A DNA stretch of 64,000 bases from Mycobacterium adipatum. Its GTDB lineage: Bacteria > Actinomycetota > Actinomycetes > Mycobacteriales > Mycobacteriaceae. A model generated the notes under the pieces. It was not told where the DNA came from. It was given only the letters and a program-made list of their open reading frames with translations, and made no database searches. The stretch spans positions 2,170,001 through 2,234,000 of the forward strand of contig NZ_CP015596.1 in NCBI RefSeq assembly GCF_001644575.1, written 5' to 3'. Of this stretch, positions 15,631-39,592 are shown in pieces; positions within the stretch are counted from its first letter, which is position 1, and each line of letters starts with the position of its first letter. The translations under genes were made by a program, and so were the position numbers.

Positions 15631-16869
15631 TCACCCGATGACGGCTGTGATCGCCAGGGCGGCGACGCACACGACGACGACGGCGGTGGTGACGCAGTAG
15701 GCGATGAAACTCGGACGGCCGATCGTGAAGCGCCCCATGAGATCGCGGTCCCGGGAGATACCGATCATCGCGAACAGGATCGGTACCAGAAGCACCGCGT
15801 TGAGCACCTGGGTGGCCAGCAGGATGGTGACGAGCGGGACGGTGGGGACGAGCACGGCCGACGCGCCGAGCACGGTGACCGCGCCGAACGTCACATAGAA
15901 CGTCTTGGCCTCGGCGAAGGAGTCGTCGACGGCCGCCTCCGTGCCGGCAAACTCGCACACGGAGTACGCCGTCGACAGCGGCAGCACCGACGCGGCCAGC
16001 AACGCGGCGCCGATCAAGCCGGCGGCGAACAGGGTCGACGCTGCCCCTCCGGCGAGCGGCTCCAGCGCCCGCGCGGCATCGGCGGCATCGCGGATGGAGT
16101 GGCCGCCACTGTGCAACGTCGCCGCGCACGCGATCACGACGAAAAATCCGATGACGCCGGTGAGCACCGCACCGGTGACGACGTCGACCCGCTCAAGCAC
16201 GAGATCGGACGTGCGCAATTTCTTGTCGACGGCGTAGGACTGGATGAACGACAGCCCCCAGGGAGCGAGTGTGGTGCCGACGGTGGCCGTCACGATGGCC
16301 AGCGCGGCACCGTCGATGGGCATGCTGGGAACCAGCAACCCCTGCGCGGCAGCACCCCAGTCCGGTCGCGCCAGCACACCCGAAGCGATGTACGCCAGGA
16401 AGACGGTCGACAGCAGGAGAAGCACGTGTTCCACGCGGTGGAAGCTGCCCCTGAGCACCAGCAGCGAGACGATGATCGCTGCCGCGGGCACGCTCACGTA
16501 CCGGCTGATCCCGAAGAGTTCTGAACCGGCCGCGATCCCGGCGAACTCGGCGCAGGTGGTTCCGATATTGGCGACGACAAGGGCGGCCAGCGTCGCGCCG
16601 CCGACCCGGACGCCGTAGCGCTGACGGACCAGGCCGATCAGCCCCTGTCCGGTGACGACGCCCATGCGGGCGGCCAGCCCGTGGAACAGGATCAGCGCGA
16701 CGGTGGACAGCAGCAGCACCCACAACAGTTGGTAGCCATAGTCGGCGCCCAGCACGGAGTAGGTGGTGATGCCGGCCGGGTCGTCATCGGAGAGTCCCGC
16801 GAGCAGCCCGGGACCGACGACGGCCACCAGTGCGCCCAGGGTGAGTCGCCTGCGGCGGATCCGCGTCAC
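15631..16869 (-). CDS. Nramp-related divalent metal transporter
   Basis: 412 residues, about 11 membrane helices. It is recognisably Nramp (GPGLLAGLSDDDPAGITTYS in helix 1, GQGLIGLVRQRYG, AEFAGIAAG, helix 6 TTLAPWGLSFIQSYAVDKK). However, the canonical metal-site motifs are changed: DPGN is DPAG and MPH is APW. Loss of the Asn and Met ligands is the pattern described for Nramp-related magnesium transporters, so Mg2+ (or another hard cation) is a better guess than Mn2+/Fe2+. The GTG start overlaps the stop of the MgtE-N gene (GTGA), so the pair is translationally coupled; that partner also points to magnesium. Confidence 0.88.
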   Translation of the reverse strand: MTRIRRRRLTLGALVAVVGPGLLAGLSDDDPAGITTYSVLGADYGYQLLWVLLLSTVALILFHGLAARMGVVTGQGLIGLVRQRYGVRVGGATLAALVVANIGTTCAEFAGIAAGSELFGISRYVSVPAAAIIVSLLVLRGSFHRVEHVLLLLSTVFLAYIASGVLARPDWGAAAQGLLVPSMPIDGAALAIVTATVGTTLAPWGLSFIQSYAVDKKLRTSDLVLERVDVVTGAVLTGVIGFFVVIACAATLHSGGHSIRDAADAARALEPLAGGAASTLFAAGLIGAALLAASVLPLSTAYSVCEFAGTEAAVDDSFAEAKTFYVTFGAVTVLGASAVLVPTVPLVTILLATQVLNAVLLVPILFAMIGISRDRDLMGRFTIGRPSFIAYCVTTAVVVVCVAALAITAVIG

Positions 16870-17765
16870 TGCGCGGCTCTGCTCCGCCGGTGGCGGCGAC
16901 GGGGCCAGACATGGGAGCGCAGGAAACGCCGACCGCGCAACACGGGTGTGCTGGCCAACCGGGCGCGCCACCGTGCCGCGTGGTCGGCCGGCATTTCGGC
17001 AACGATGTCGGTGGCGTTCGAGCTGGGCATCGCCCGCAGGATCCGTTCGCCCACGCCGGGGTCCACCCGGATGGCTTCCGCGGCCACGGCGGGCGCCGTC
17101 GCGGCGAGCACCTCGGCGGCCGCCTCGGTGGCGAGACGCTCGACCATCGCCGCGAGCTCGGTGGCACCGAGGTGGTGCACGGCGGACCGGGGCGTCGCCA
17201 GTTGCACGGTGTGACCGCGGCCGGAGGTCATATGCAGGGCGTTCCATTCCACGATATCGCGTGGTGCCCGCGCCGCCAGCTGGGTCAGGCCGAGTCGTCG
17301 CAGTACTGCGCCGAAACCGACTTCGACGCCGATCAATTCGAGTCGATCCCCGGCCACCGAGGTGAGCGCGACGTCGGCCACCCTGGCGAGTCGCCGACCG
17401 ACGATATCGACGATCTGGGTGTCGAGGACATCTCGCACGATCAGAATCTCGTGGCGATGCAGCGCGGCATCGGCGCAAGCAATCTCGAACGCGGCGACGT
17501 CGACTCCGGTGCGCAGCGAAATTCCACCCGCGCCGACATTCTCGGTGACCGACCACGGCAGGAGCAGATCGTGTGCCCGCCGGCGCCGAACCAGCAGTCG
17601 CTGTACCCGCGGCGGGCCGGCTTGGATGTCGAGGCCGACGGACAGGTCGGCGAGTCGTCCGATCGTGCGGCCGTCGGTTCCGATGACACGCCGGCCCACC
17701 GCGTCGCTGAGCAGAAGAAGGCCGGGCGGTGCTGAGGCGCTCGCCGGCTTCCTGGAGCTGTTCAG
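16866..17765 (-). CDS. PRC-barrel / MgtE N-domain protein, probable CTG start
   Basis: About 299 residues if begun at the CTG at 17765; the first ordinary start is a GTG at 17699. The N-terminal part (LLLLSDAVGRRVIGTDGRTIGRLADLSV) is a PRC-barrel, which the GTG start would cut through its first strand. The C-terminal part (ELAAMVERLATEAAAEVLAA ... VGERILRAMPSSNATDIVAEMP) is the helical MgtE intracellular N domain, which in MgtE senses Mg2+ and gates the pore. Here it is a separate protein coupled to an Nramp-like transporter. Support for CTG: a perfect AGGAGG six bases upstream, and CTGA overlapping the upstream stop exactly as ATGA/GTGA does elsewhere in this window. Confidence 0.72.
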   Translation of the reverse strand: MNSSRKPASASAPPGLLLLSDAVGRRVIGTDGRTIGRLADLSVGLDIQAGPPRVQRLLVRRRRAHDLLLPWSVTENVGAGGISLRTGVDVAAFEIACADAALHRHEILIVRDVLDTQIVDIVGRRLARVADVALTSVAGDRLELIGVEVGFGAVLRRLGLTQLAARAPRDIVEWNALHMTSGRGHTVQLATPRSAVHHLGATELAAMVERLATEAAAEVLAATAPAVAAEAIRVDPGVGERILRAMPSSNATDIVAEMPADHAARWRARLASTPVLRGRRFLRSHVWPRRRHRRSRAAQ

Positions 17766-18199
17766 TGCCCGCCTCCTATGGCAGTTCGGGTCGAGCGCGA
17801 CGGTGGCGAGCGCAACACCGCCCAGACCTCCCAGCCGTGCTGGAAGCGGTCACATCCCCAGGAGGCTGCCAGATGCCGCACCGCAGTAGAACATCGGGCC
17901 GGCCTCGTATCGGTCCGATCATCGAACAGCGGCGTCCTGGCCTGGGCATCGAACACGCGGACAGCGATCTGTCCGGCCATCAGCTCGATGTCGACCTCGA
18001 CGTCGTGATGGCGCCGCCGGATGCTCTCCGCGACGAGTTCGCCGACGACGAATGCGGCATCGTCGACGACGCGTTGCGGCAGATCGGCGGGGTCGCCCAG
18101 TTCGTGGACCAGCCTGCGGGAGATTCGCGGTGCGAAGACGGTCGGGTGCAGACGCAACCGACATCTCGTGGAAGCCGGTCCGGCGTCGATGGCCTGCAT
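17762..18199 (-). CDS. anti-sigma-type HATPase (RsbW/SpoIIAB-like) protein
   Basis: 145 residues. LPQRVVDDAAFVVGELVAESIRRRHHDVEVDIEL is the N-box region of a GHKL ATPase of the serine kinase anti-sigma type, and IAVRVFDAQARTPLF takes the place of the G1 box (usually V.D.G.G), which is poorly conserved here. The last part is LAASWGCDRFQHGWEVWAVL, as in other HATPase_c_2 proteins. It could regulate a sigma factor or simply bind nucleotide. The ATG at 18199 has ACAGGAG upstream; the frame is open to 18289. It is first in an operon with the MgtE-N and Nramp-like genes and has a good DosR box upstream. Confidence 0.75.
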   Translation of the reverse strand: MQAIDAGPASTRCRLRLHPTVFAPRISRRLVHELGDPADLPQRVVDDAAFVVGELVAESIRRRHHDVEVDIELMAGQIAVRVFDAQARTPLFDDRTDTRPARCSTAVRHLAASWGCDRFQHGWEVWAVLRSPPSRSTRTAIGGGH

Positions 18200-18288: not shown

Positions 18289-18306
18289 TAGTGCCATTGG
18301 TCCCGG
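18289..18306 (-). promoter_or_regulatory. DosR box upstream of HATPase/MgtE-N/Nramp operon
   Basis: Minus strand CCGGGACCAATGGCACTA fits GGGACCWWNGGCCCT with one core mismatch. It lies about 90 nt upstream of the HATPase start. Confidence 0.65.
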
Positions 18307-18337: not shown

Positions 18338-20947
18338 TCAGGGCGACCGTCGGCCGTGGCCCGAACCCGCCCGCGTCCTGCGAAGCCATTTGTGCGTGGC
18401 GTCCGCCACGAGAATCGCCGGTATCGCGGCGGCGGCCACGGCGTAGCCCGCCGGGGGCGGTCCGGTGTGGCCCAGGATTTCGGCAATCGGGGGCACATAC
18501 AGCAGCAGCACCAGCAGACCGAGCTCGGCGGCCACCGCCGCGACGAGGAGCCGGTTGGTCCACGGCGCCACGGTCCACGCCGGGCGCTCGGCACTTCGGC
18601 AGGCGAACGCGTTTGCCGCCTGGCCCAAGACGATCGCGGTGAAGGCGGCCCCGGAAGCCATCAGCAGAACGTGGGTGCTGACCGGGTCGGTGCCGAAATG
18701 CCAACCGCCCGCTTGTAACACCGTCACGAACGCCGCGAGCGCCACCACCGCCTCGGTCATCCCCAGAACGGCGAATGCCCGCAAGATCAGCGCGCGGTCC
18801 AAGAGATGGCCTTTGGTCGGCGGACCCTGCAGCGATCGGTTGTCGGGCGGCTCGGCGCCCAGCGCGAGGGCGGGCAACACGTCGGTTCCGATGTCGAGGG
18901 CCAACACTTGCAGCACGCCAATCGCAAGCGGAAAGTGGCCGGCGGTGAGCGCCCAGACCACGAACGGGGCCAGCTCGGCGACGTTGTCCGCGAGGTGATA
19001 GGTGAGGAACCTGCGAATGTTCGCGAACGTCGAGCGTCCCTGGGCGATGGCGGTGACGATCGTCTCGAAGTTGTCGTCGAGCAGGACAACGTCGGCGGCT
19101 TCCCGGGCGACGTCGGTACCGCTGCGGCCCATGGCCACGCCGATCGCCGCCTCTCTGAGCGCGGGAGCGTCGTTGACACCGTCGCCGGTCATCGCCACCA
19201 CATGTCCCCGCAGCCGCAGTGCTCGGGCGATCCGCAGCTTGTCCTCCGGGGTCACCCGGGCAACGACCACGCCGTCCCGGTCGAGCAGCTCGCCCAGGGC
19301 GCCGAGTTCCGCGGGGAGATCGGCGCCGACCAGCACCGAGGCGTCCCCGCGCGAGAGCCCGATCTCGCGGGCGATGGCCCCCGCGGTCGCCGGATGGTCT
19401 CCGGTCACCATGGCGACGCGGATACCCGCAGTGCGGCAACGGTCGAGAACCTCGCTCACCCCGGGACGCGGTGGATCCTCCAGTGCCACCAGGCCCAGCA
19501 GGTGCAGGTCGCGTTCGGCGTCGGCGCAATCCTGCGGTGAGCCTTCGTCGTGCGCGACGTCACGGCGGGCGACGGCGAGCACCCGCAGTCCCCGGCCCGT
19601 CAATTCCTCGAGTGCCGGTGCGGCGGCGGCAGCGTTGTCACACAGCGGCAGAACCGCATCCGGTGCACCCTTGGTCAGAATGCTGTCACCGACGACCACG
19701 GACATCCGGCGTCGGCGCGGGTCGAACGGGAACTTCATCCGCGGTGCCGCCGGCCCGTTGTCGGCGCTCACCCGACGCGCGAAGGCGTCCAGTGCCGCCT
19801 CCATCGGATCACCGTGGGCGACCCAGATTCCGTCGGTCTCTTCCACCCGCCCGGATGAGCACATCCGGGCGGCCCAGGCCAGCACGCCGAGAGCATCGCG
19901 TGCCTCTGGGCGCGCGCAGTGCACGTCAGCGGTCGGCCGATAGCCGACGCCCTGGATTCGGGCGGAGCCGTGCGGCGTCCACACCTGCACCACCGACATC
20001 TCGTTCTGCGTCAGGGTGCCGGTCTTGTCGGTGCAGATGAACGTCGTGGAACCAAGCGTCTCGACGGCCTCCAGGTGCCGGACGAGCGCTTGCTTGCGGG
20101 CCATCCGTTGAGCGCCGATCGCCAGCGCGAGCGTCACGGTGGGAAGCAGGCCTTCCGGCACCACCGCCACGGTGACCCCGACGGCGAACAGGAAGCCGTC
20201 CGAGGGCGGCATGCCGATCAGCACTGCCGTCACGAAGAATGTCGCACCGATCCCGACGGCCACCGCCGCGATGACCCGTGACAGCCGGTCGAGTTCACGC
20301 CGCAGCGGTGTCGGTGAATGCCGTTGTGCCTGTGTCAGCTTGGAGATGGCGGCCAGTCGCGTTGCAGGACCGGTGGCCGTGACCCGGGTCCGCGCCTCAC
20401 CCTCCACCACGAAGCAGCCGGCATAGACCGCGTCGCCCGACCCCGGGTGCTCGGCCAGGCTTTCACCGGTGAGTGCGGAGGAGTCGACGGCCAGGCCCGC
20501 GCCGTCGAGCACCACGGCGTCCGCCGACACTCGGTCCCCTTCGGCGAGCAGCACGATGTCACCGATCACGAGTTCATCGGCCCAGACTTGTCGGGTCAGC
20601 CCGTCGCGGACCACCGTCGCCTTGCGCGGCAACATCTGCTGCAATCCCTGTGCGGCGTGCTGGGCCCGTTCTTCCTGCGCGAAGGCGAAGATCGCGTTGA
20701 GCAGCACCACGGCGAAGATCGCGATGCCCAATTCCGGCATACCGGCGACGAAAGCCAAACCGCCCGCGATCCAGAACAACACCGCGAAGAAATGGACCAG
20801 GTTGGCGGCGAACCGCCGCCACCATCGCTGGTTACGTTGCAGCGGAGGGCTATTGGGTCCGTTCGATGCCAGCAGTGCGGCGGCCTGCGACGAGGTCAAA
20901 CCACCGGTGTCGCCGACGACGTCGGCGTTGACGGACCCGCCCGTCAT
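18338..20947 (-). CDS. ctpF: P2-type cation ATPase (CtpF-like)
   Basis: 869 residues, full length for a SERCA/PMR1-like P-type ATPase. It has an N-terminal cation-ATPase domain (LTSSQAAALLASNGPNSPP), actuator motif SSALTGES, helix 4 PEGL motif (VVPEGLLPTVTLALA), phosphorylation site DKTGTLT (Asp about 307), hinge TGDGVNDAPAL, and a C-terminal transporter domain. DosR-controlled CtpF (Rv1997) of M. tuberculosis has this architecture and is linked to calcium efflux. Its ATG overlaps the stop of the upstream P1B-hemerythrin gene by four bases, so the two ATPases are made together. Confidence 0.9.
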   Translation of the reverse strand: MTGGSVNADVVGDTGGLTSSQAAALLASNGPNSPPLQRNQRWWRRFAANLVHFFAVLFWIAGGLAFVAGMPELGIAIFAVVLLNAIFAFAQEERAQHAAQGLQQMLPRKATVVRDGLTRQVWADELVIGDIVLLAEGDRVSADAVVLDGAGLAVDSSALTGESLAEHPGSGDAVYAGCFVVEGEARTRVTATGPATRLAAISKLTQAQRHSPTPLRRELDRLSRVIAAVAVGIGATFFVTAVLIGMPPSDGFLFAVGVTVAVVPEGLLPTVTLALAIGAQRMARKQALVRHLEAVETLGSTTFICTDKTGTLTQNEMSVVQVWTPHGSARIQGVGYRPTADVHCARPEARDALGVLAWAARMCSSGRVEETDGIWVAHGDPMEAALDAFARRVSADNGPAAPRMKFPFDPRRRRMSVVVGDSILTKGAPDAVLPLCDNAAAAAPALEELTGRGLRVLAVARRDVAHDEGSPQDCADAERDLHLLGLVALEDPPRPGVSEVLDRCRTAGIRVAMVTGDHPATAGAIAREIGLSRGDASVLVGADLPAELGALGELLDRDGVVVARVTPEDKLRIARALRLRGHVVAMTGDGVNDAPALREAAIGVAMGRSGTDVAREAADVVLLDDNFETIVTAIAQGRSTFANIRRFLTYHLADNVAELAPFVVWALTAGHFPLAIGVLQVLALDIGTDVLPALALGAEPPDNRSLQGPPTKGHLLDRALILRAFAVLGMTEAVVALAAFVTVLQAGGWHFGTDPVSTHVLLMASGAAFTAIVLGQAANAFACRSAERPAWTVAPWTNRLLVAAVAAELGLLVLLLYVPPIAEILGHTGPPPAGYAVAAAAIPAILVADATHKWLRRTRAGSGHGRRSP

Positions 20948-23400
20948 GTCGAGGACCGCCCCGTCGACGGGGATGCGTCGGGCAGCAACGTGAAGTAGCT
21001 CTCCTCCTCGGCGGCGAAGTGCAGCGACAGCAGGGCATGCAATCCGTACAGGCAGGCCAGCAGATCCTCGGTTTGTGCGAGCGCCACCGAACCGGTTGCC
21101 TCCGCTTGATCGAGGTGGGCATGCAGGCGGTAGGCCAGCCGGTCGATCTCGGCGTGCATCCGGCTCATCGTGGCCGTTGCTTCGGGGCTGCCCAGCGGTC
21201 GCGTGAGAGCCGGGTACAGGGAGCGATCCTCGGCGTGCTCGTGCGGTAGCAGGGTGTCCTGTACGAAGGCATCGGTGCGGCGCAGCGCGACCAGCGCCGC
21301 GGCGCGGTCGCCGACGGCCAATTCATGCGCGGTGTCCCGCAACAGGGACAGGTCGGCCCGCATCACATCGTGTTCGGCGGAGAACCGGCGAATCAACCCC
21401 TGGGTGCCGGCGGTCAACGCCGGCCGCTCTCCCGCACCCGCGCGTAGCGCCCGCAGCGCGTTGAGGATCACCGACAGGTCGATGACCTCCTGCAGCAGCG
21501 CACCGAGCGCCGGGGGAAGCAGACCCACCGCCGCGAACCCCATCGCCACAATGGACAGCACCATGCCGATGGCGGCGCTCTGCAAGGCAATTCGGCGTGA
21601 ACGGCGTGCGATCAACATGGCGTCGGCCAACCGATCGAGCCGGTCCGTCGTCAGCACGACGTCGGCCGCTTCCGAACTCGCGGTGGCGCCGCGGGCACCC
21701 ATCGCGACGCCCACCGTGGCGGTGGCGAGTGCGGGTGCGTCGTTGACACCGTCGCCGACCATGACGGTCACCGCGCGTTCCCGCTCGGCGGCCACGCGGG
21801 CCACCTTCTCGGCAGGAGTCTGCCCGGACCGCACCTCGTCGAATCCCAGTACCGCACCGATCTGCTCGGCGGGGGCGGCACGATCACCGGTCAGCATGAT
21901 CACGCGGTCGATGCCCGCGGTGCGCAGTCGACGTATCGTGCGGGGAGCGTCGGACCGTATCGGATCCATCAACAGGATCGCTCCCACCAGTCGTCCGTCC
22001 ACGGTGACCCATGCGATGGCGGCGGCATCGAACGACGCCTGAGACAGTGCGGCGGCCACCCACGGGGGCGGATCGTCGGACAGCTCACGATTTCCCACGG
22101 TGACCCGCGTACCATCGACGACCGCCGAAATGCCCTTTCCTGCTTCTTCGGTGACGTCCGTCGGCGGGCTGAGCGCGAGTCCGCGCTCGCGCGCCTCGTC
22201 GACAATTGCCCTGGCCAGTACGTGCGGAGAGAACTGATCGGCCGACGCGGCGAGGCGCAACACCGACGACGGCGACCATCCTTGCGCGACCACGATGTCG
22301 GTGCCACGTGGTCGACCGCTGGTCACCGTGCCGGTCTTGTCCAGCACCAGTGTGGTGGCCCGGGCCAGATTCTCCAATGCGCCACCGCCGCGGACGATTA
22401 CGCCCATCCGGGAGGCCCGCGACAGTCCCGACACGATCGCCACGGGTGCCGCCAACAGCAGCGGGCAGGGTGTTGCCACCACCAGCACGGCGACGGCCCG
22501 CGCGGCGGATCCACTCCACCACCATGCCGTCGCGGCGACCACCAGGGTGAGTGGGAGGAACCACTGCGCCAAGCGATCGGCCAGCCGTACGACGGGCGCG
22601 CTGGTGGCGGCGGCCTCGCGCGCCAAACGCACGATCCCGGCATAGGTGCTGTCGTCGGCGGTGGCGGTCGCGCGGATCTCGATCACACCGCCGGCGTTGA
22701 TCGCACCGCTGCGGACTTCGTGGCCGGCCGGCACGTCGACGTGCACCGATTCACCAGTAAGCGCCGATTCATCGAGCATTGCCCACTCCGAGGCGACCCT
22801 GGCGTCGACGGGCAACATCTCGCCCGGCCCGACCACGAGAACGTCATCGATGGCGACCTCGGCGAGGGGCACCGTCTCCACATCGTCGCCGTGACGGCGG
22901 CGGGCCTCCTTCGGCGCTCGCTCCAGCAGGGCCCGCAGATCCTTGGTTGCGCGTCGCTCGGCGGCGTGTTCGAGTGCCTGGCCGGTGGCCAGCATGACAC
23001 CGATCAACGCGCCGGCGAGATACTCGCCGACGGCGAGCGTGCCGCCCAGCGAGAGCACCGCGATGACATCGACACCGAACTTTCCACGCCGCAGTGCGAT
23101 GACCAACCACCACACCGCGGCCACCAGCGCCACCACGGTGCCCGCGGTCCAGAACGTGTCAGCCGCCGTGGTGGCGCCCAGAGACCAGGCCAGTCCGCCG
23201 GCCGCCAGCGCGCTGACCGTGGCGCCGACCAGCGCTACCAGCAGCACCTGGGACAGCGAGTCTCGACGGCGGGACGGAGACGCTCCCACGGAAATTACTC
23301 GGCCGCGACGGGCTGGGGTGTCCGGGGTCCGGCGGCTCGGCCTGCCCGCATCCCACCCGACGCCACGTCGATCGTCACTTGGCCGCGCATCGTCGGCCAT
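20944..23400 (-). CDS. P1B-like heavy-metal ATPase fused to a hemerythrin domain
   Basis: 818 residues. The first ~630 are a P-type ATPase: actuator DESALTGES, helix motif VVATPCPLLLAAPVA (TPC where P1B pumps normally have CPC or SPC), phosphorylation site DKTGTVT (Asp about 354), GDGVNDAPAL hinge. No N-terminal Cys-rich metal domain is seen. The last ~170 residues form a four-helix hemerythrin domain with metal-ligand-like His/Glu in SAEHDVMRADL, LLPHEHAEDRSLYPAL, MSRMHAEIDRL and LHALLSLHFAAEEESYF. A di-iron O2/NO-binding domain on a pump suggests gating by oxygen, NO or iron. A strong DosR box lies upstream. Confidence 0.88.
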   Translation of the reverse strand: MADDARPSDDRRGVGWDAGRPSRRTPDTPARRGRVISVGASPSRRRDSLSQVLLVALVGATVSALAAGGLAWSLGATTAADTFWTAGTVVALVAAVWWLVIALRRGKFGVDVIAVLSLGGTLAVGEYLAGALIGVMLATGQALEHAAERRATKDLRALLERAPKEARRRHGDDVETVPLAEVAIDDVLVVGPGEMLPVDARVASEWAMLDESALTGESVHVDVPAGHEVRSGAINAGGVIEIRATATADDSTYAGIVRLAREAAATSAPVVRLADRLAQWFLPLTLVVAATAWWWSGSAARAVAVLVVATPCPLLLAAPVAIVSGLSRASRMGVIVRGGGALENLARATTLVLDKTGTVTSGRPRGTDIVVAQGWSPSSVLRLAASADQFSPHVLARAIVDEARERGLALSPPTDVTEEAGKGISAVVDGTRVTVGNRELSDDPPPWVAAALSQASFDAAAIAWVTVDGRLVGAILLMDPIRSDAPRTIRRLRTAGIDRVIMLTGDRAAPAEQIGAVLGFDEVRSGQTPAEKVARVAAERERAVTVMVGDGVNDAPALATATVGVAMGARGATASSEAADVVLTTDRLDRLADAMLIARRSRRIALQSAAIGMVLSIVAMGFAAVGLLPPALGALLQEVIDLSVILNALRALRAGAGERPALTAGTQGLIRRFSAEHDVMRADLSLLRDTAHELAVGDRAAALVALRRTDAFVQDTLLPHEHAEDRSLYPALTRPLGSPEATATMSRMHAEIDRLAYRLHAHLDQAEATGSVALAQTEDLLACLYGLHALLSLHFAAEEESYFTLLPDASPSTGRSST

Positions 23401-23445: not shown

Positions 23446-23463
23446 TAGGGCCTCTGGTCCCTT
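23446..23463 (-). promoter_or_regulatory. DosR box upstream of ATPase operon
   Basis: Minus strand AAGGGACCAGAGGCCCTA holds GGGACC-AGAG-GCCCT, an almost symmetric DosR box, about 47 nt before the ATPase start. Confidence 0.75.
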
Positions 23464-26968: not shown

Positions 26969-29900
26969 TCACCTGACCTGGATCGTCTGTCCGGACGACA
27001 GTCGCTGGATGCGGCCCCGGCATTCGACTTCGATGGTCGACGCCCCGCTGGGGTCGGCAGTGACCTCGGCCGTTCGACCGCAGATGCTCAGGTGCAGTCG
27101 GTGCCCCCGATACCACAGCGAATACGTCAGCTCCCCGGCGCTTTCCGGCCACATCGGGCCGAGCACCAGACGATCACCCCGGGTTTCCAGGCCGGAGAAA
27201 CAGCGCTGCAACAGGTCGATGCTGCCGGCCATCGCGGCCAGGTGGATGCCCTCGGTGGTGGAACCGCCCTGGCTGTCCGTCACATCTGAATCGAGAACGC
27301 GCTGGAAATAGTGCAGGGCCTGATCGCGGTCGCCACGTGCGAGTACCCAGGAATGCACCACCGCACTCAAGGTGGACCCGTGCGATGTGCGGTTCAGGTA
27401 GTAGTCGATCGTGCGGGGGATCTGTTGTGGTCGGAACTCATATCCCAGGTGGGCGAACAGCTCTCGCAGTTCGTCTGCGGAGAAGAGGTAGAACAGCATC
27501 AAGGTGTCGGCCTGCTTGGCGGCCCGGTATCTGTTGATGTCGTCGTTCTCGGCCTCCAGTATCCGGTCCAGGCGTCCGATGTCGCCGTATCTGCTCCGGT
27601 AGCGTTCCCAGTCCAGTTCGCGAAGGTCCTGATAGCCCTCGAACTGGCTGATGACACCGTCGTGGAAGGGGACGAACATGTACCGGCTCACCGAGTCCCA
27701 CTGCGCCAAATCGCTATTGGATACGTCGAGGCGCTCCAGAAGGTTCAACCGGTCGGGTAGCGGCAGTGCAGCGAGGGCGTCGAGGGCCCGCAGGATCACC
27801 CACACCGCCATCACATTGGTGTACGCGTTGTTGTCGATTCCCTCGTGTGGACGCTGCGGGTAGCCGGAGTGAAACTCGTCGGGGCCGATCACGCCGTTGA
27901 TCACATACCGCTGCCGGTCGGCATCGAACTGGGCCCGGCTGGACCAGAATCGGGCAACCTCGATCAGTGTCTCGGCGCCGTGATCGAGCAGGTACTGGCG
28001 ATCGCCGGTGATCTGGTAGTAGTGCCACACGTTGTAGGCTACGGCGGAGCCGATATGGTGCGCCAGGTGGCTGGCGTCCGGATTCCAGTGTCCCGAAAGC
28101 GGATTCAGATGCAGACGCTGGCTTTGCTCACTACCGTCACTGCCGGACTGCCACGGGTACATGGCTCCCGCGTAGCCGGCTGCGGCCGCGTTGCGCCGGG
28201 CCTGATCCAGCCGCCGGTAGCGGTAACCGAGCAGTGCACGCGACACCTGCGGCAGCCGCAGCGTCAACACCGGCACGATGAACAACTCATCCCAGAAGAT
28301 GTGACCGCGGTAGGCCTCACCGTGCAGACCTCGAGCGGGAATGCCGGTGTCGATGTCCGCGCTGTGGCCCGAAACCGACTGCAGCAGATGCATGATGTGC
28401 AGTCTGAGTATCGTGAGGCGATCGGGTGAACCGGGCAGATCGATATCGAATGACGTCCACAGTTGCGACCAGATCGTCGCGTGGTCCTCCAACAGGTCGC
28501 CGTACCGGCCCGCCTCGGTGACCAGCTCGCTCGCGGCCTCCTGCGGTGCCGACAGCGCGCGGTCATGCCCGGTGAAAATCGCTGCCACCTTCTCGACGGT
28601 GAGTGGACGGTCCGCGCTGATATCGGTGCTGACGATGTGGCCGGCGGTCGCCGGATCTCCGAGGAACTGTGCTGTGTTCGGTACCCGGCGGTCGGCCTGC
28701 CACACCGATGTCCGAGTGGCCACCGCCACGGGTGTCTGGGATTGGGTGGTGCGAGCGCCCACCACGACCGTGCCGTCGGCCGCCTCCGTCACGGTGATGC
28801 TGCAGAGGTGCTGTCCCGACAGAAGCTGGTATCGCTGCACACCGCTGTTGGACACCGTTGCGTCGATCGTCGATCGGATTTCAATGGTGCCCGACCAGTT
28901 CTCGGCGCGAATGTCCGTTCGCAGCGCGCCGATGTGCGGGTTGTGCATCGATACGAAGCGTCGTTGGGTCACCGCCGTCTGGCGTCCCGCGGCATCGCGG
29001 TACCGCAGCTCGCGGATGTGCTCGGCGCGGCCGATGTTCATGGTCTGGCGATAGGAGAGAAGCTCGCAGTCATCCACATCGAACCATCGGCCGCCCTGCG
29101 GGCGGATCGTGAGGGGCAACCAGTTGGGCAGGTTCACCAAGCTCTCGTTGCTGACGGTCTTCCCGGCGATGGTGTCGGTCAAGCGGTTGTACAGGCCCGC
29201 AACATATGTTCCCGCGTAGTGGGCCGGCCCGATGGGGCACTCTGGCGCCGCCCCGCGGGTACCGGCGTAGCCATTGCCGACCGTGCACAGCACCTCTCGA
29301 AGTCGTTCCGATGCCGGACGATAGCCCTCGAACTCGAGTCGCCAGTGGCGATCGTCGGCCGGTGATCCGGCCTGCAGCAGACGAGTCAGACGCGCGAGCA
29401 GTGCCACCACCCGGCTCGGTGCCGACAGCGTGAATTGTGCGGTGCTGGAACGCTCCTGGTCCTCGTCATGGCGGACCAGAATACCGATCCCGGTCAGCTT
29501 GACCGCGTCGAAGCCGTCTTCGTCGGTCACGTCGTCGCCGATGTAGATGGGTGTGAACGCGGCAGGCAACTGCAACCTGCCGGCTATCGACGTGACGGCT
29601 GCACCGCGGTCCCACATCACATCCGGGCGCAGCTCGACCATCATGCGGGCATATGTGACCCGTAGACCGTGACGCTGACCGACCGCCCGGGCCACTGACA
29701 GCACATGGGTGAGTTTTTCGGGTGCCACGTTGCGGTAATGAACCGCCACGGCGAAGGGTTGTTCCTCCAGAAGGGTCCCGCGTATGTCACCGAGCGTGCA
29801 GCGCAGCTCGGCGGCGGCATCGCGCAACGGCTGCACACTCCCGGTGCCGAGTTCCGTGCGGTACACCCGGCCATCCGGGCCTGCCAGATCGAGTCCGTGC

Positions 29901-30994
29901 GAGCCCGCGTACCACAGCCCAGGCACCCCCACCCTGGCCCGGACATCGTCCAGCGCACGGCCGCTGACGATGGCGACCGGACACACCAGGCTCAAGGCGC
30001 GCAATGTTTCGTCGGCACCGGCCACCAGGGTGGCGTCGACCGGATCCTCGACGAGGTCGGACAAGGTTGCGTCGAAATCGATGACGATCGCCGCTCGCCG
30101 GCCGGCCAGGACCGGCTCGATCTGGGCGAGGCTGTCAAGGGCATCCGGCAACGCGGACGCGCGCCGGTCACCGGTACGGACATCGATATCGGCCACGTCG
30201 CACACCGCTGTATCGGCACCTGCCGCGGTCAACTGAGCCCCGTTGCCGTACAGGGCGATTCCCACAACCAGTGCGAATCCGCCGGCGTGGCCCGCCCGCG
30301 TTCCCGAGGCCGCGTCATCGGCGATCACGCACCGGTCCGGCCGCACCCCTAACCGACGAGCCGCCTCCAGCAGCAGTGCCGGGTGCGGCTTGCCCGGCAG
30401 GCCGAGCATATCGGCGGTTTCGCCGTCGACCCGAACGGCGAAGAGGTCCAGGACGCCGGCCGCACGCAGGACGCGCTCACAGTTCTTGCTCGACGAGTAC
30501 ACCGCGGAGGCGATACCGACATCGCTGAGCCGGCGGACCAGTGCGATCGTCGAATCGACGGCGGTCACCCCGCCGTCCAACAGTCCCAGATAGAGCTGCT
30601 GTTTGCGGCCGGCCAGCTCAGCAACGGTGCGGTCGGTGGCCTCGCCGGGTACCAGCGCGATACCCCGCGAGGTGAGGAAGTCCCGGATGCCGTCCGCTCG
30701 GGGCTTCCCGTCCACATGACCGCGGTAGTCCTCGGCGGTGAAGGGGCCGTGATCCTCATGTGGCAGCGGCGGCCGTTCGGCCAGGAAGCTGTCGAAGAGG
30801 GCTTTCCATGCCCGTTGGTGCAGTTTCGCGGTGTCGGTGACGACCCCGTCCAGATCGAACAGCACCCCGTCGTGATGGCGCGGATCGATGATGACGCGGG
30901 TACCGCGGGCACCGCTGTTGGGCCGGGTCGACGGGCGCGCAGGGTCGTGGTGCACCGGTGCCGACATCGACCGATGTTCCGGTGTGCTCGTCAC
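26969..30994 (-). CDS. otsB1: OtsB1-type trehalose-6-phosphate phosphatase / GH65 fusion
   Basis: 1341 residues, similar in size and order to DosR-regulated Rv2006 (OtsB1). Three domains: an N-terminal beta-phosphoglucomutase-type HAD (FDLDGVVTD, Asp47/Asp49); a trehalose-phosphatase HAD (IDFDATLSD, Asp306/Asp308; GDDVTDEDGFDAV); and from about residue 560 a GH65 glycoside phosphorylase, with FWDELFIVP, MYPWQSGSDGSE and the general acid Glu in GPDEFHSGY (about residue 1040). All three look catalytically complete, suggesting phosphorolysis and phosphate transfer on trehalose-type sugars; the real substrate of such fusions is not settled. The GTG start is one base past the TGA of the zinc-ribbon gene. 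Confidence 0.9.
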   Translation of the reverse strand: MTSTPEHRSMSAPVHHDPARPSTRPNSGARGTRVIIDPRHHDGVLFDLDGVVTDTAKLHQRAWKALFDSFLAERPPLPHEDHGPFTAEDYRGHVDGKPRADGIRDFLTSRGIALVPGEATDRTVAELAGRKQQLYLGLLDGGVTAVDSTIALVRRLSDVGIASAVYSSSKNCERVLRAAGVLDLFAVRVDGETADMLGLPGKPHPALLLEAARRLGVRPDRCVIADDAASGTRAGHAGGFALVVGIALYGNGAQLTAAGADTAVCDVADIDVRTGDRRASALPDALDSLAQIEPVLAGRRAAIVIDFDATLSDLVEDPVDATLVAGADETLRALSLVCPVAIVSGRALDDVRARVGVPGLWYAGSHGLDLAGPDGRVYRTELGTGSVQPLRDAAAELRCTLGDIRGTLLEEQPFAVAVHYRNVAPEKLTHVLSVARAVGQRHGLRVTYARMMVELRPDVMWDRGAAVTSIAGRLQLPAAFTPIYIGDDVTDEDGFDAVKLTGIGILVRHDEDQERSSTAQFTLSAPSRVVALLARLTRLLQAGSPADDRHWRLEFEGYRPASERLREVLCTVGNGYAGTRGAAPECPIGPAHYAGTYVAGLYNRLTDTIAGKTVSNESLVNLPNWLPLTIRPQGGRWFDVDDCELLSYRQTMNIGRAEHIRELRYRDAAGRQTAVTQRRFVSMHNPHIGALRTDIRAENWSGTIEIRSTIDATVSNSGVQRYQLLSGQHLCSITVTEAADGTVVVGARTTQSQTPVAVATRTSVWQADRRVPNTAQFLGDPATAGHIVSTDISADRPLTVEKVAAIFTGHDRALSAPQEAASELVTEAGRYGDLLEDHATIWSQLWTSFDIDLPGSPDRLTILRLHIMHLLQSVSGHSADIDTGIPARGLHGEAYRGHIFWDELFIVPVLTLRLPQVSRALLGYRYRRLDQARRNAAAAGYAGAMYPWQSGSDGSEQSQRLHLNPLSGHWNPDASHLAHHIGSAVAYNVWHYYQITGDRQYLLDHGAETLIEVARFWSSRAQFDADRQRYVINGVIGPDEFHSGYPQRPHEGIDNNAYTNVMAVWVILRALDALAALPLPDRLNLLERLDVSNSDLAQWDSVSRYMFVPFHDGVISQFEGYQDLRELDWERYRSRYGDIGRLDRILEAENDDINRYRAAKQADTLMLFYLFSADELRELFAHLGYEFRPQQIPRTIDYYLNRTSHGSTLSAVVHSWVLARGDRDQALHYFQRVLDSDVTDSQGGSTTEGIHLAAMAGSIDLLQRCFSGLETRGDRLVLGPMWPESAGELTYSLWYRGHRLHLSICGRTAEVTADPSGASTIEVECRGRIQRLSSGQTIQVR

Positions 30995-32572: not shown

Positions 32573-32601
32573 GTGCTGGCGCAGTGGTGCCGTACCGGCG
32601 G

Positions 32602-32619
32602 CCAGGACCAACGGCCGCG
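32602..32619 (+). promoter_or_regulatory. DosR box upstream of PRTase-esterase gene (distal)
   Basis: CCAGGACCAACGGCCGCG, close to GGGACCAACGGCCC. First of a pair spaced 21 nt apart, two helical turns, which would allow cooperative DosR binding. Confidence 0.6.
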
Positions 32620-32622
32620 GGG

Positions 32623-32641
32623 ATGTGACTTCGGTCCCTAT
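32623..32641 (+). promoter_or_regulatory. DosR box upstream of PRTase-esterase gene (proximal)
   Basis: ATGTGACTTCGGTCCCTAT, with core GACTTCGGTCCC. Second of the pair. It ends about 145 nt before the ATG, leaving a long leader or a start further upstream. Confidence 0.65.
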
Positions 32642-32785
32642 CGGGCGTCGGGGTCACTTGGTGGAATACCCCTAGGAACGGCGCCCGACTGTTTCCAGGC
32701 TGCTGTTCTGACCGCGGCTGTCTCGCCCGCGTGGTCGTGCATCTCAGCGCCGGCGGTCCGAAACTCCGAACTCCGAGGAGCCATC

Positions 32786-34831
32786 ATGACCCTGGCCACA
32801 GATGGACGGCGCCATTCGCCACGACGCGTGTTCCGGGACCGTCGAGAGGCCGGCCGTGTGCTGGCCGGCCTGCTCGACGCCTACCGCGGGGACCCGGACG
32901 TGCTGGTCCTCGGTTTGGCGCGCGGCGGCATCCCGGTGGCCTGGGAGGTCGCCGCCGCGATCGGTGCGCCTCTGGACGCGTTCGTGGTGCGCAAGCTCGG
33001 CGCGCCCGGGCACGAAGAGTTCGCCGTCGGGGCCTTGGCCAGTGGGGGACGGGTGGTTGTCAACGACGACATGCTGCGCGCGCTGCGGGTCACCCCGCAG
33101 CAGCTCCGTGATATCGCCGAGCGTGAAGGCCGCGAATTGGTCCGTCGTGAGGCTGCCTACCGAGGGGGCCGTGGCCCCGCCGAGATTGCCGGCAAGACAG
33201 TGATTCTGGTCGATGACGGACTGGCGACCGGCGCCAGCATGCTGGCGGCGGTGCAAGCCCTGCGCGAGCGCGAACCGGCCCGCATCGTGATCGCGGTGCC
33301 TGCCGCTCCCGAATCGACATGCCGGGAGTTCGCGGGGCTGGTCGACGATATGGTCTGTGCCAGTATGCCCACGCCGTTTCGTGCTGTCGGGGAATCATTC
33401 TGGGATTTCGCCCAGGTCACCGACGACGAGGTCCGCGCACTGCTGACCACGCCGACAACCGGCACCGCCGTCCTGCCCGCCGCGATCGGTCCGTCGGCCG
33501 CCGAGCTGCTGGGTCACGCGGTGATCGACGCCCCGGCGGGTGTCCCGCCGACGGAGGCGCTGGAGGAACTGATCGGCGACGCGCGGATCGTGCTGATCGG
33601 CGAAAGCTCGCACGGTACGCACGAATTCTACGAAGCCCGCGCAGCGATCACGCGCTGGCTCATCGAGGAGAAGGGCTTCGACGGAGTCGCGGCGGAGGCG
33701 GACTGGCCGGACGCCTACCGGGTGAACCGCTATGTCCGGGGGCTGGGCGAGGACACCTCCGCCGACGCCGCACTGACCGGGTTCCAACGATTCCCCGCCT
33801 GGATGTGGCGCAACACGGTGGTGCGCGATTTCGTCGAGTGGCTGCACGCGCACAACCAGCGCTGCCGTGCCGACGACCGCAAGCAAACCGGCTTCTACGG
33901 CCTGGATCTCTACAGCCTGCACCGGTCGATGAAGGAGGTCATCGACTATCTGGAGAATGTGGACCCGGTGGCTGCCGAGCGGGCGCGACATCGCTACGGG
34001 TGTTTCGACCACGCGTCGGCCGACGACGGTCAGGCGTACGGATACGCCGCGGCATTCGGGGCCGGACCCTCGTGCGAGGGCCAGGTCATCGAGCAGTTGG
34101 TGGAAATGCAGCGCAACGGTCTGCAGTACGCGCGCCGCGACGGACTGCTCGCCGAGGACGAGGCCTTCTACGCCCAGATGAATGCCCAGACCGTGCGGGA
34201 CGCGGAGGCGTATTACCGGGCAATGTTCGGTGGCCGCGTCACATCGTGGAACATGCGTGACCAACACATGGCGCACACGTTGCGGGCGCTGCTGGCCCAC
34301 CTCGACCGCGATTCCGGGGGGCGTCCCTCTCGAATCGTGGTGTGGGCGCACAACTCGCATGTCGGTGACGCACGCGCCACGGAGGTGTCCGGAGACGGTC
34401 AGCTCACCCTCGGACAGCTGGTGCGTGAGCAGTACGGTGACGACTGTCGTCTGATCGGGCTGACCACCTACGGGGGCACCGTGACCGCGGCGAGCAGTTG
34501 GGGCGGCATCGCCGAGCGCAAGACCGTCCGGCCGGCGCTGCACGGCAGCATCGAGGAGCTCTTGCACCACGCCGGAAGTCCGGCGTTTCTGGTGTCGTGT
34601 GCGCTCAGCCGCGATGCCGAACAGCCACTGGGCGCGGTTCGGCTGGGCCGGGCCATCGGGGTGATCTATCTGCCGGAAACCGAACGGCAAAGCCACTACT
34701 ACCACGTCCGGCCCGCGGACCAGTTCGACGCGATCATCCACATCGACCGCACCCGGGCGCTGGAGCCGCTGGAGGTCACCAGTCGATGGGTGGCGGGCCA
34801 GACTCCGGAAACCTACCCGTCCGGGTTGTAG
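32786..34831 (+). CDS. phosphoribosyltransferase / erythromycin-esterase fusion (Rv2030c-like)
   Basis: 681 residues, the same length as DosR-regulated Rv2030c. Residues ~15-215 are a type I phosphoribosyltransferase: [17 protein letters not shown], and the PRPP loop [17 protein letters not shown]. Residues ~240-670 are an erythromycin-esterase-like domain ([37 protein letters not shown]). Whether the esterase acts on a macrolide is doubtful; its His and Glu residues are kept. ATG 32786 has CGAGGAG upstream. It starts the set PRTase - pfkB - USP - small membrane protein; M. tuberculosis has the same first three genes (Rv2030c-Rv2028c). Confidence 0.9.

Positions 34832-37167: not shown

Positions 37168-39592
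<2,425 letters not shown>

Follow-up and report, generated by a model that had tools for sequence, protein, structure and literature searches.

According to the text of Shin et al. 2014 (PMC4072509), most of the nrmT genes examined, which encode Nramp-related magnesium transporters (NRMT or NrmT), adjoin a gene for a homologue of the MgtE N-terminal cytoplasmic domain, and feedback control was speculated there. In the sections of PMC8806188 that deal with the Eggerthella lenta protein EleNRMT, the NRMT signature is given as DxxG in helix 1 and TxxA/T in helix 6, with both helix-6b histidines replaced. Here we analyze a window of 64,000 nucleotides (the whole stretch of DNA studied; contig NZ_CP015596.1, positions 2,170,001 to 2,234,000 of the forward strand) from the 6.05-Mb genome of Mycobacterium adipatum, whose nearest named relatives, judged by its Nramp carrier, are mycobacteria. 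The carrier gene lies immediately downstream of an MgtE-like gene, referred to as the helper. With good confidence, we regard the locus as this known two-gene carrier/helper system in a variant that lacks CBS domains and that, locally, follows a pseudo-anti-sigma gene and a DosR-like box. A sequence-only reading of this DNA knew of no described system of such composition, a view overtaken by the pairing reported in 2014.

By its sequence, the carrier is an NRMT. The gene (P0004; 15631..16869, minus strand) starts with GTG and encodes 412 amino acids (Pfam Nramp, E 1.8e-84). Its best relative in the PDB is EleNRMT (7qia; E 5.1e-92, 312 bits), far ahead of the runner-up (E 1.2e-28, 104 bits), and by bit score it is nearer to the NRMTs than to transition-metal Nramps. 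The metal site reads DPAG and TTLA, corresponding to DxxG and TxxA/T; both helix-6b histidine proton acceptors are lost, with Trp and Ile in their places, and the helix-3 Glu is retained. As described in the same sections of PMC8806188, EleNRMT likewise has DxxG and TxxA, both proton-path histidines replaced and the helix-3 Glu kept, but it carries DAGG where the protein here has DPAG, and Asn rather than Ile at the second histidine position. The DPAG/TTLAPW site is found in 93 of 116 aligned carrier rows, some of which are two fetches of one locus, and only the second histidine position varies among the 93 (Ile 48, Met 44, Val 1). Since the DPAG/TTLA site matches the NRMT signature, the motif changes identify the carrier as one of the magnesium-type clade, and a novel metal site was rejected. 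The likely function of the carrier is proton-uncoupled uptake of Mg2+ and/or Mn2+ by way of a widened site; the efflux that had also been proposed finds no support here. The other Nramp of the genome (L001) has the canonical DPGN/MPH site. Two further Nramp relatives (L030 and L031) have a mixed site, DAGS with AVIMPW, intermediate between the canonical and NRMT forms, and in other members of the genus (L018-L027 and L029) a long, CBS-bearing helper adjoins a second NRMT, a divergent one at about 34% identity.

The helper and the carrier are tightly linked. From a larger group of genus genomes, 60 were sampled; 15 of them contain the carrier at 76% identity or more, and the helper is directly upstream in all 15. 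The helper has 19 matches in those genomes, and all but one (in G039) have an NRMT no more than 0.8 kb away. In a second sample of named loci (the best 80 of 193), the helper is near the carrier in 75, of which 74 were detected by tblastn and one (L113) retains the C-terminal half of the helper at a contig end. It was not detected at the other five of the 80 (L129, L130, L131, L133 and L134). In Mycolicibacterium lacusdiani (L093), the pair directly follows a P-type ATPase gene, with relatives of universal stress proteins within 8 kb.

The helper (P0002; 16866..17765, minus strand) consists of two PRC-barrel-like modules, a short MgtE N domain and an Arg/Trp-rich tail, with PRC and MgtE_N both above the Pfam cut-off; the latter is the MgtE-N-like feature of the nrmT loci of Shin et al. 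Its structural model (predicted local distance difference test, pLDDT, 84.6) matches PRC proteins, FliG and the MgtE N domain, and its sequence alone, searched against the PDB, gave a best E of 0.84. Pfam found no CBS domain in it. The 80 loci yielded 64 complete helper frames, six having no tblastn match and ten failing the start/stop test: 50 are short, 13 long and one, left out of both counts, intermediate (346 amino acids). CBS domains were found by Pfam in all three long helpers scanned and in none of the six short ones. The positions of the MgtE site residues, taken from PMC5882242, divide the two forms in the same way. D247 and D250 are Asp in 13/13 long helpers and missing in P0002 and in 50/50 short ones; the D95 position is acidic in 12/13 long helpers, Arg or His in 37/50 short ones, and Arg in the helper here. 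Compared with the MgtE cytosolic domain (2yvy, 5x9h), with its Mg2+/ATP gate, P0002 lacks the plug helix, the membrane part and the CBS pair bearing the acids D247 and D250. With neither a CBS half nor the corresponding residues of the Mg2+ site, the helper appears unlikely to exert MgtE-style gating of the carrier by Mg2+ or ATP. A basic-aromatic tail pattern, approximately R-R-x-[FL]-x-R-x-x-x-W, is matched in 42 of the 50 short helpers. The short, CBS-less form was not met in the literature searched on Nramp/NrmT with MgtE, the figures of PMC4072509 being outside the scope of that search, and no paper was found joining Nramp, MgtE and PRC-barrel, or MgtE, DosR and Nramp.

The helper/carrier overlap is GTGA. 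The overlap of the helper with a third, upstream gene (17762..18199, minus strand), which encodes a HATPase-like protein of 145 amino acids, is CTGA, provided that the helper starts at CTG 17765. We accept this start as probable because upstream of 17699 the frame offers no conventional start codon, and a Shine-Dalgarno-like site, AGGAGG (17772..17777, minus strand), stands 6 nt ahead of the CTG. The three minus-strand genes with 4-nt overlaps are present as the sequence-only reading had them. A 138-nt gap separates the HATPase-like ATG at 18199 from a CtpF-like cation P-type ATPase gene (18338..20947, minus strand; Pfam), a neighbour outside the carrier system. About 90 nt before the ATG it holds a DosR-box-like core, GGGACCAATGGCAC (18291..18304, minus strand), matching 13/14 positions of a core that was loosened from the consensus TTSGGGACTWWAGTCCCSAA, as published in the relevant part of PMC2275270, after the strict consensus had shown no enrichment. 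On the loosened core, five sites of at least 13/14 occur in the 64 kb, with 1.3 expected. Pfam identifies in the surroundings several universal stress proteins, nitroreductases and P-type ATPases, together with a DosS/DosR-like pair (37168..39592, minus strand) comprising a GAF-GAF-HisKA_3-HATPase_c kinase and a Response_reg-GerE regulator. The names CtpF, DosS and DosR are ones that we take to fit these neighbours, and the surroundings are presumably linked to dormancy. The DosR box proposed ahead of the genes is, on this looser core, a fair match, and it lies within a DosR/DosS-type island. The carrier pair would thereby have been moved locally under dormancy control, with DosR acting on it through the matched box. 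A listing-level literature search found no paper tying DosR to Nramp in hypoxia or in Mycolicibacterium. Next to the CtpF-like gene and overlapping it by 4 nt is a P-type ATPase with a C-terminal hemerythrin domain (20944-23400, minus strand), and another 13/14 DosR-like core, at 23448, lies just upstream of it. Farther along, one frame (26969-30994, minus strand) combines a HAD hydrolase, a trehalose-phosphatase and a family-65 glycoside hydrolase.

How the helper acts can be proposed in outline. Translated together with the carrier, it would probably bind the cytoplasmic side of the carrier and tune it, and this control would probably be a docking or assembly role, perhaps by way of the basic-aromatic tail. 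As a tentative reading, one that we would put forward with well under even confidence, the helper in an actinobacterial clade swapped the Mg2+/ATP-sensing CBS domains for this tail and became a tail-docking regulator or assembly factor, with sensing handed to DosR hypoxia control in the present lineage. Several observations weigh against the main, two-gene reading. Of the six short helpers scanned, two have an MgtE_N match above the Pfam cut-off, three have one that falls short of it, and one has no match. Acidic residues persist at the MgtE positions E59 and D91 in the helper here and, for each position, in 35 of the 50 short helpers, so some metal binding by the short form is possible. A single origin of the CBS-less helper has a tree support of only 19 (52 chosen rows, quick method). 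In one test described in the text of PMC4072509, co-expression of the MgtE-like gene with nrmT did not improve rescue, and control of the carrier by the helper is therefore unproven. The strict DosR consensus, as said, is not enriched, and DosR-like boxes of at least 13 stand upstream of the helper at one of 80 loci, about the chance level (some 0.7 expected, estimated from the window background), for which reason conserved DosR control of NRMT loci was rejected. Neither the window, in which only a tRNA reached Rfam's threshold, nor any of eight relatives tested contains an M-box at that threshold. The M-box riboswitch, as the text of PMC4072509 has it, accompanies Mg-transporting NrmT members, though it marks only a subset and is thus no requirement; the M-box-less NrmT of Acidobacterium capsulatum was judged there to be likely mainly a Mn transporter. 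This precedent, the lack of a detected M-box and the carriage of Mn2+ by EleNRMT, mentioned in its published account, all favor taking the carrier as a DosR-controlled Mn2+ (or Fe2+) importer whose magnesium link is misleading. With one full MgtE, the genome also has an alternative route for Mg2+ import. However, the binding site of the carrier is of the NRMT type and the canonical Nramp L001 is already available for Mn2+, so that we regard a Mn2+ or Fe2+ importer as a minority view, albeit one to be kept in sight.

The HATPase-like protein bears on two further explanations. Its predicted fold is that of the RsbW/SpoIIAB anti-sigma kinases (6m36, 1th8), of the GHKL/HATPase_c_2 type; by sequence, the best PDB match of the family is the ATPase domain of DosS, at E 0.37. 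The three genes are probably made together, given their 4-nt overlaps and common DosR-like box, which lends some appeal to a three-part, nucleotide-aware system for Mg2+ uptake or efflux, as had been suggested, with the HATPase as the ATP sensor and the helper as the link by which it gates the carrier. According to PMC5529423, the CBS domain of MgtE is where ATP modulates it; since the helper lacks that domain, it would be reasonable for another protein to sense ATP in its stead. But the Asn of the N-box, part of the ATP/Mg2+ site, is replaced in all 11 family members (Glu in 10, Asp in one) and kept in all 10 of the distant relatives that were aligned. By eye, the same genome has 14 HATPase_c_2 domains over the cut-off, 13 of them with this Asn (L168 is without it), and the Gly motifs of the protein look degenerate. 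The protein probably no longer binds ATP, and with the CBS half, MgtE's ATP site, missing from the helper as well, a nucleotide-aware system is supported on neither count. The gene is beside the carrier in none of the 80 named loci and has strong matches in only 4 of 396 genus genomes. Three of these four contain the carrier, and the two are adjacent only in this genome; they are distant from each other in G295 and G155, and no carrier was detected in G288. A conserved third partner was rejected on these grounds, and we consider the three-part system very improbable. What endures of the three-gene proposal, besides the DosR-like box, is the Nramp-related carrier with its MgtE-type partner: in the co-occurrence check it had called for, these two genes did recur together and the set of three did not. 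A different explanation, that the HATPase-like protein is a partner-switch component of the dormancy regulon (a pseudo anti-sigma factor) only sharing an operon with the carrier pair, would add to the two-gene reading, and we stop just short of favoring it. It is weakened in that there are only three other genomes, G155 has no core of at least 13 near the gene, and in G288 the box may serve a divergent gene and no relative of any other window gene is nearby. On the two-gene reading, the gene with the RsbW-like fold would be a separate one, associated with dormancy, to which the pair is attached here; both this gene and the dormancy switch look as if they had been added locally, in this mycobacterium. 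Compared with the NrmT system in the text of PMC4072509, the locus has an extra HATPase-like gene and a DosR-like box, no M-box was found, and the helper is without a CBS domain and has an Arg/Trp-rich tail. Elsewhere in the window, phosphoribosyltransferase and erythromycin-esterase domains share one frame (32573-34831, plus strand), a 68% identical relative of which is found near the HATPase-like gene in L151.

What the MgtE-like helper contributes to NRMT carriers was not settled by the 2014 work. Long and short helpers stand beside related carriers, also within this genus, so that their comparison can test the role of the CBS domains. The DosR-like box, for its part, hints that divalent-metal uptake can join the dormancy programme.
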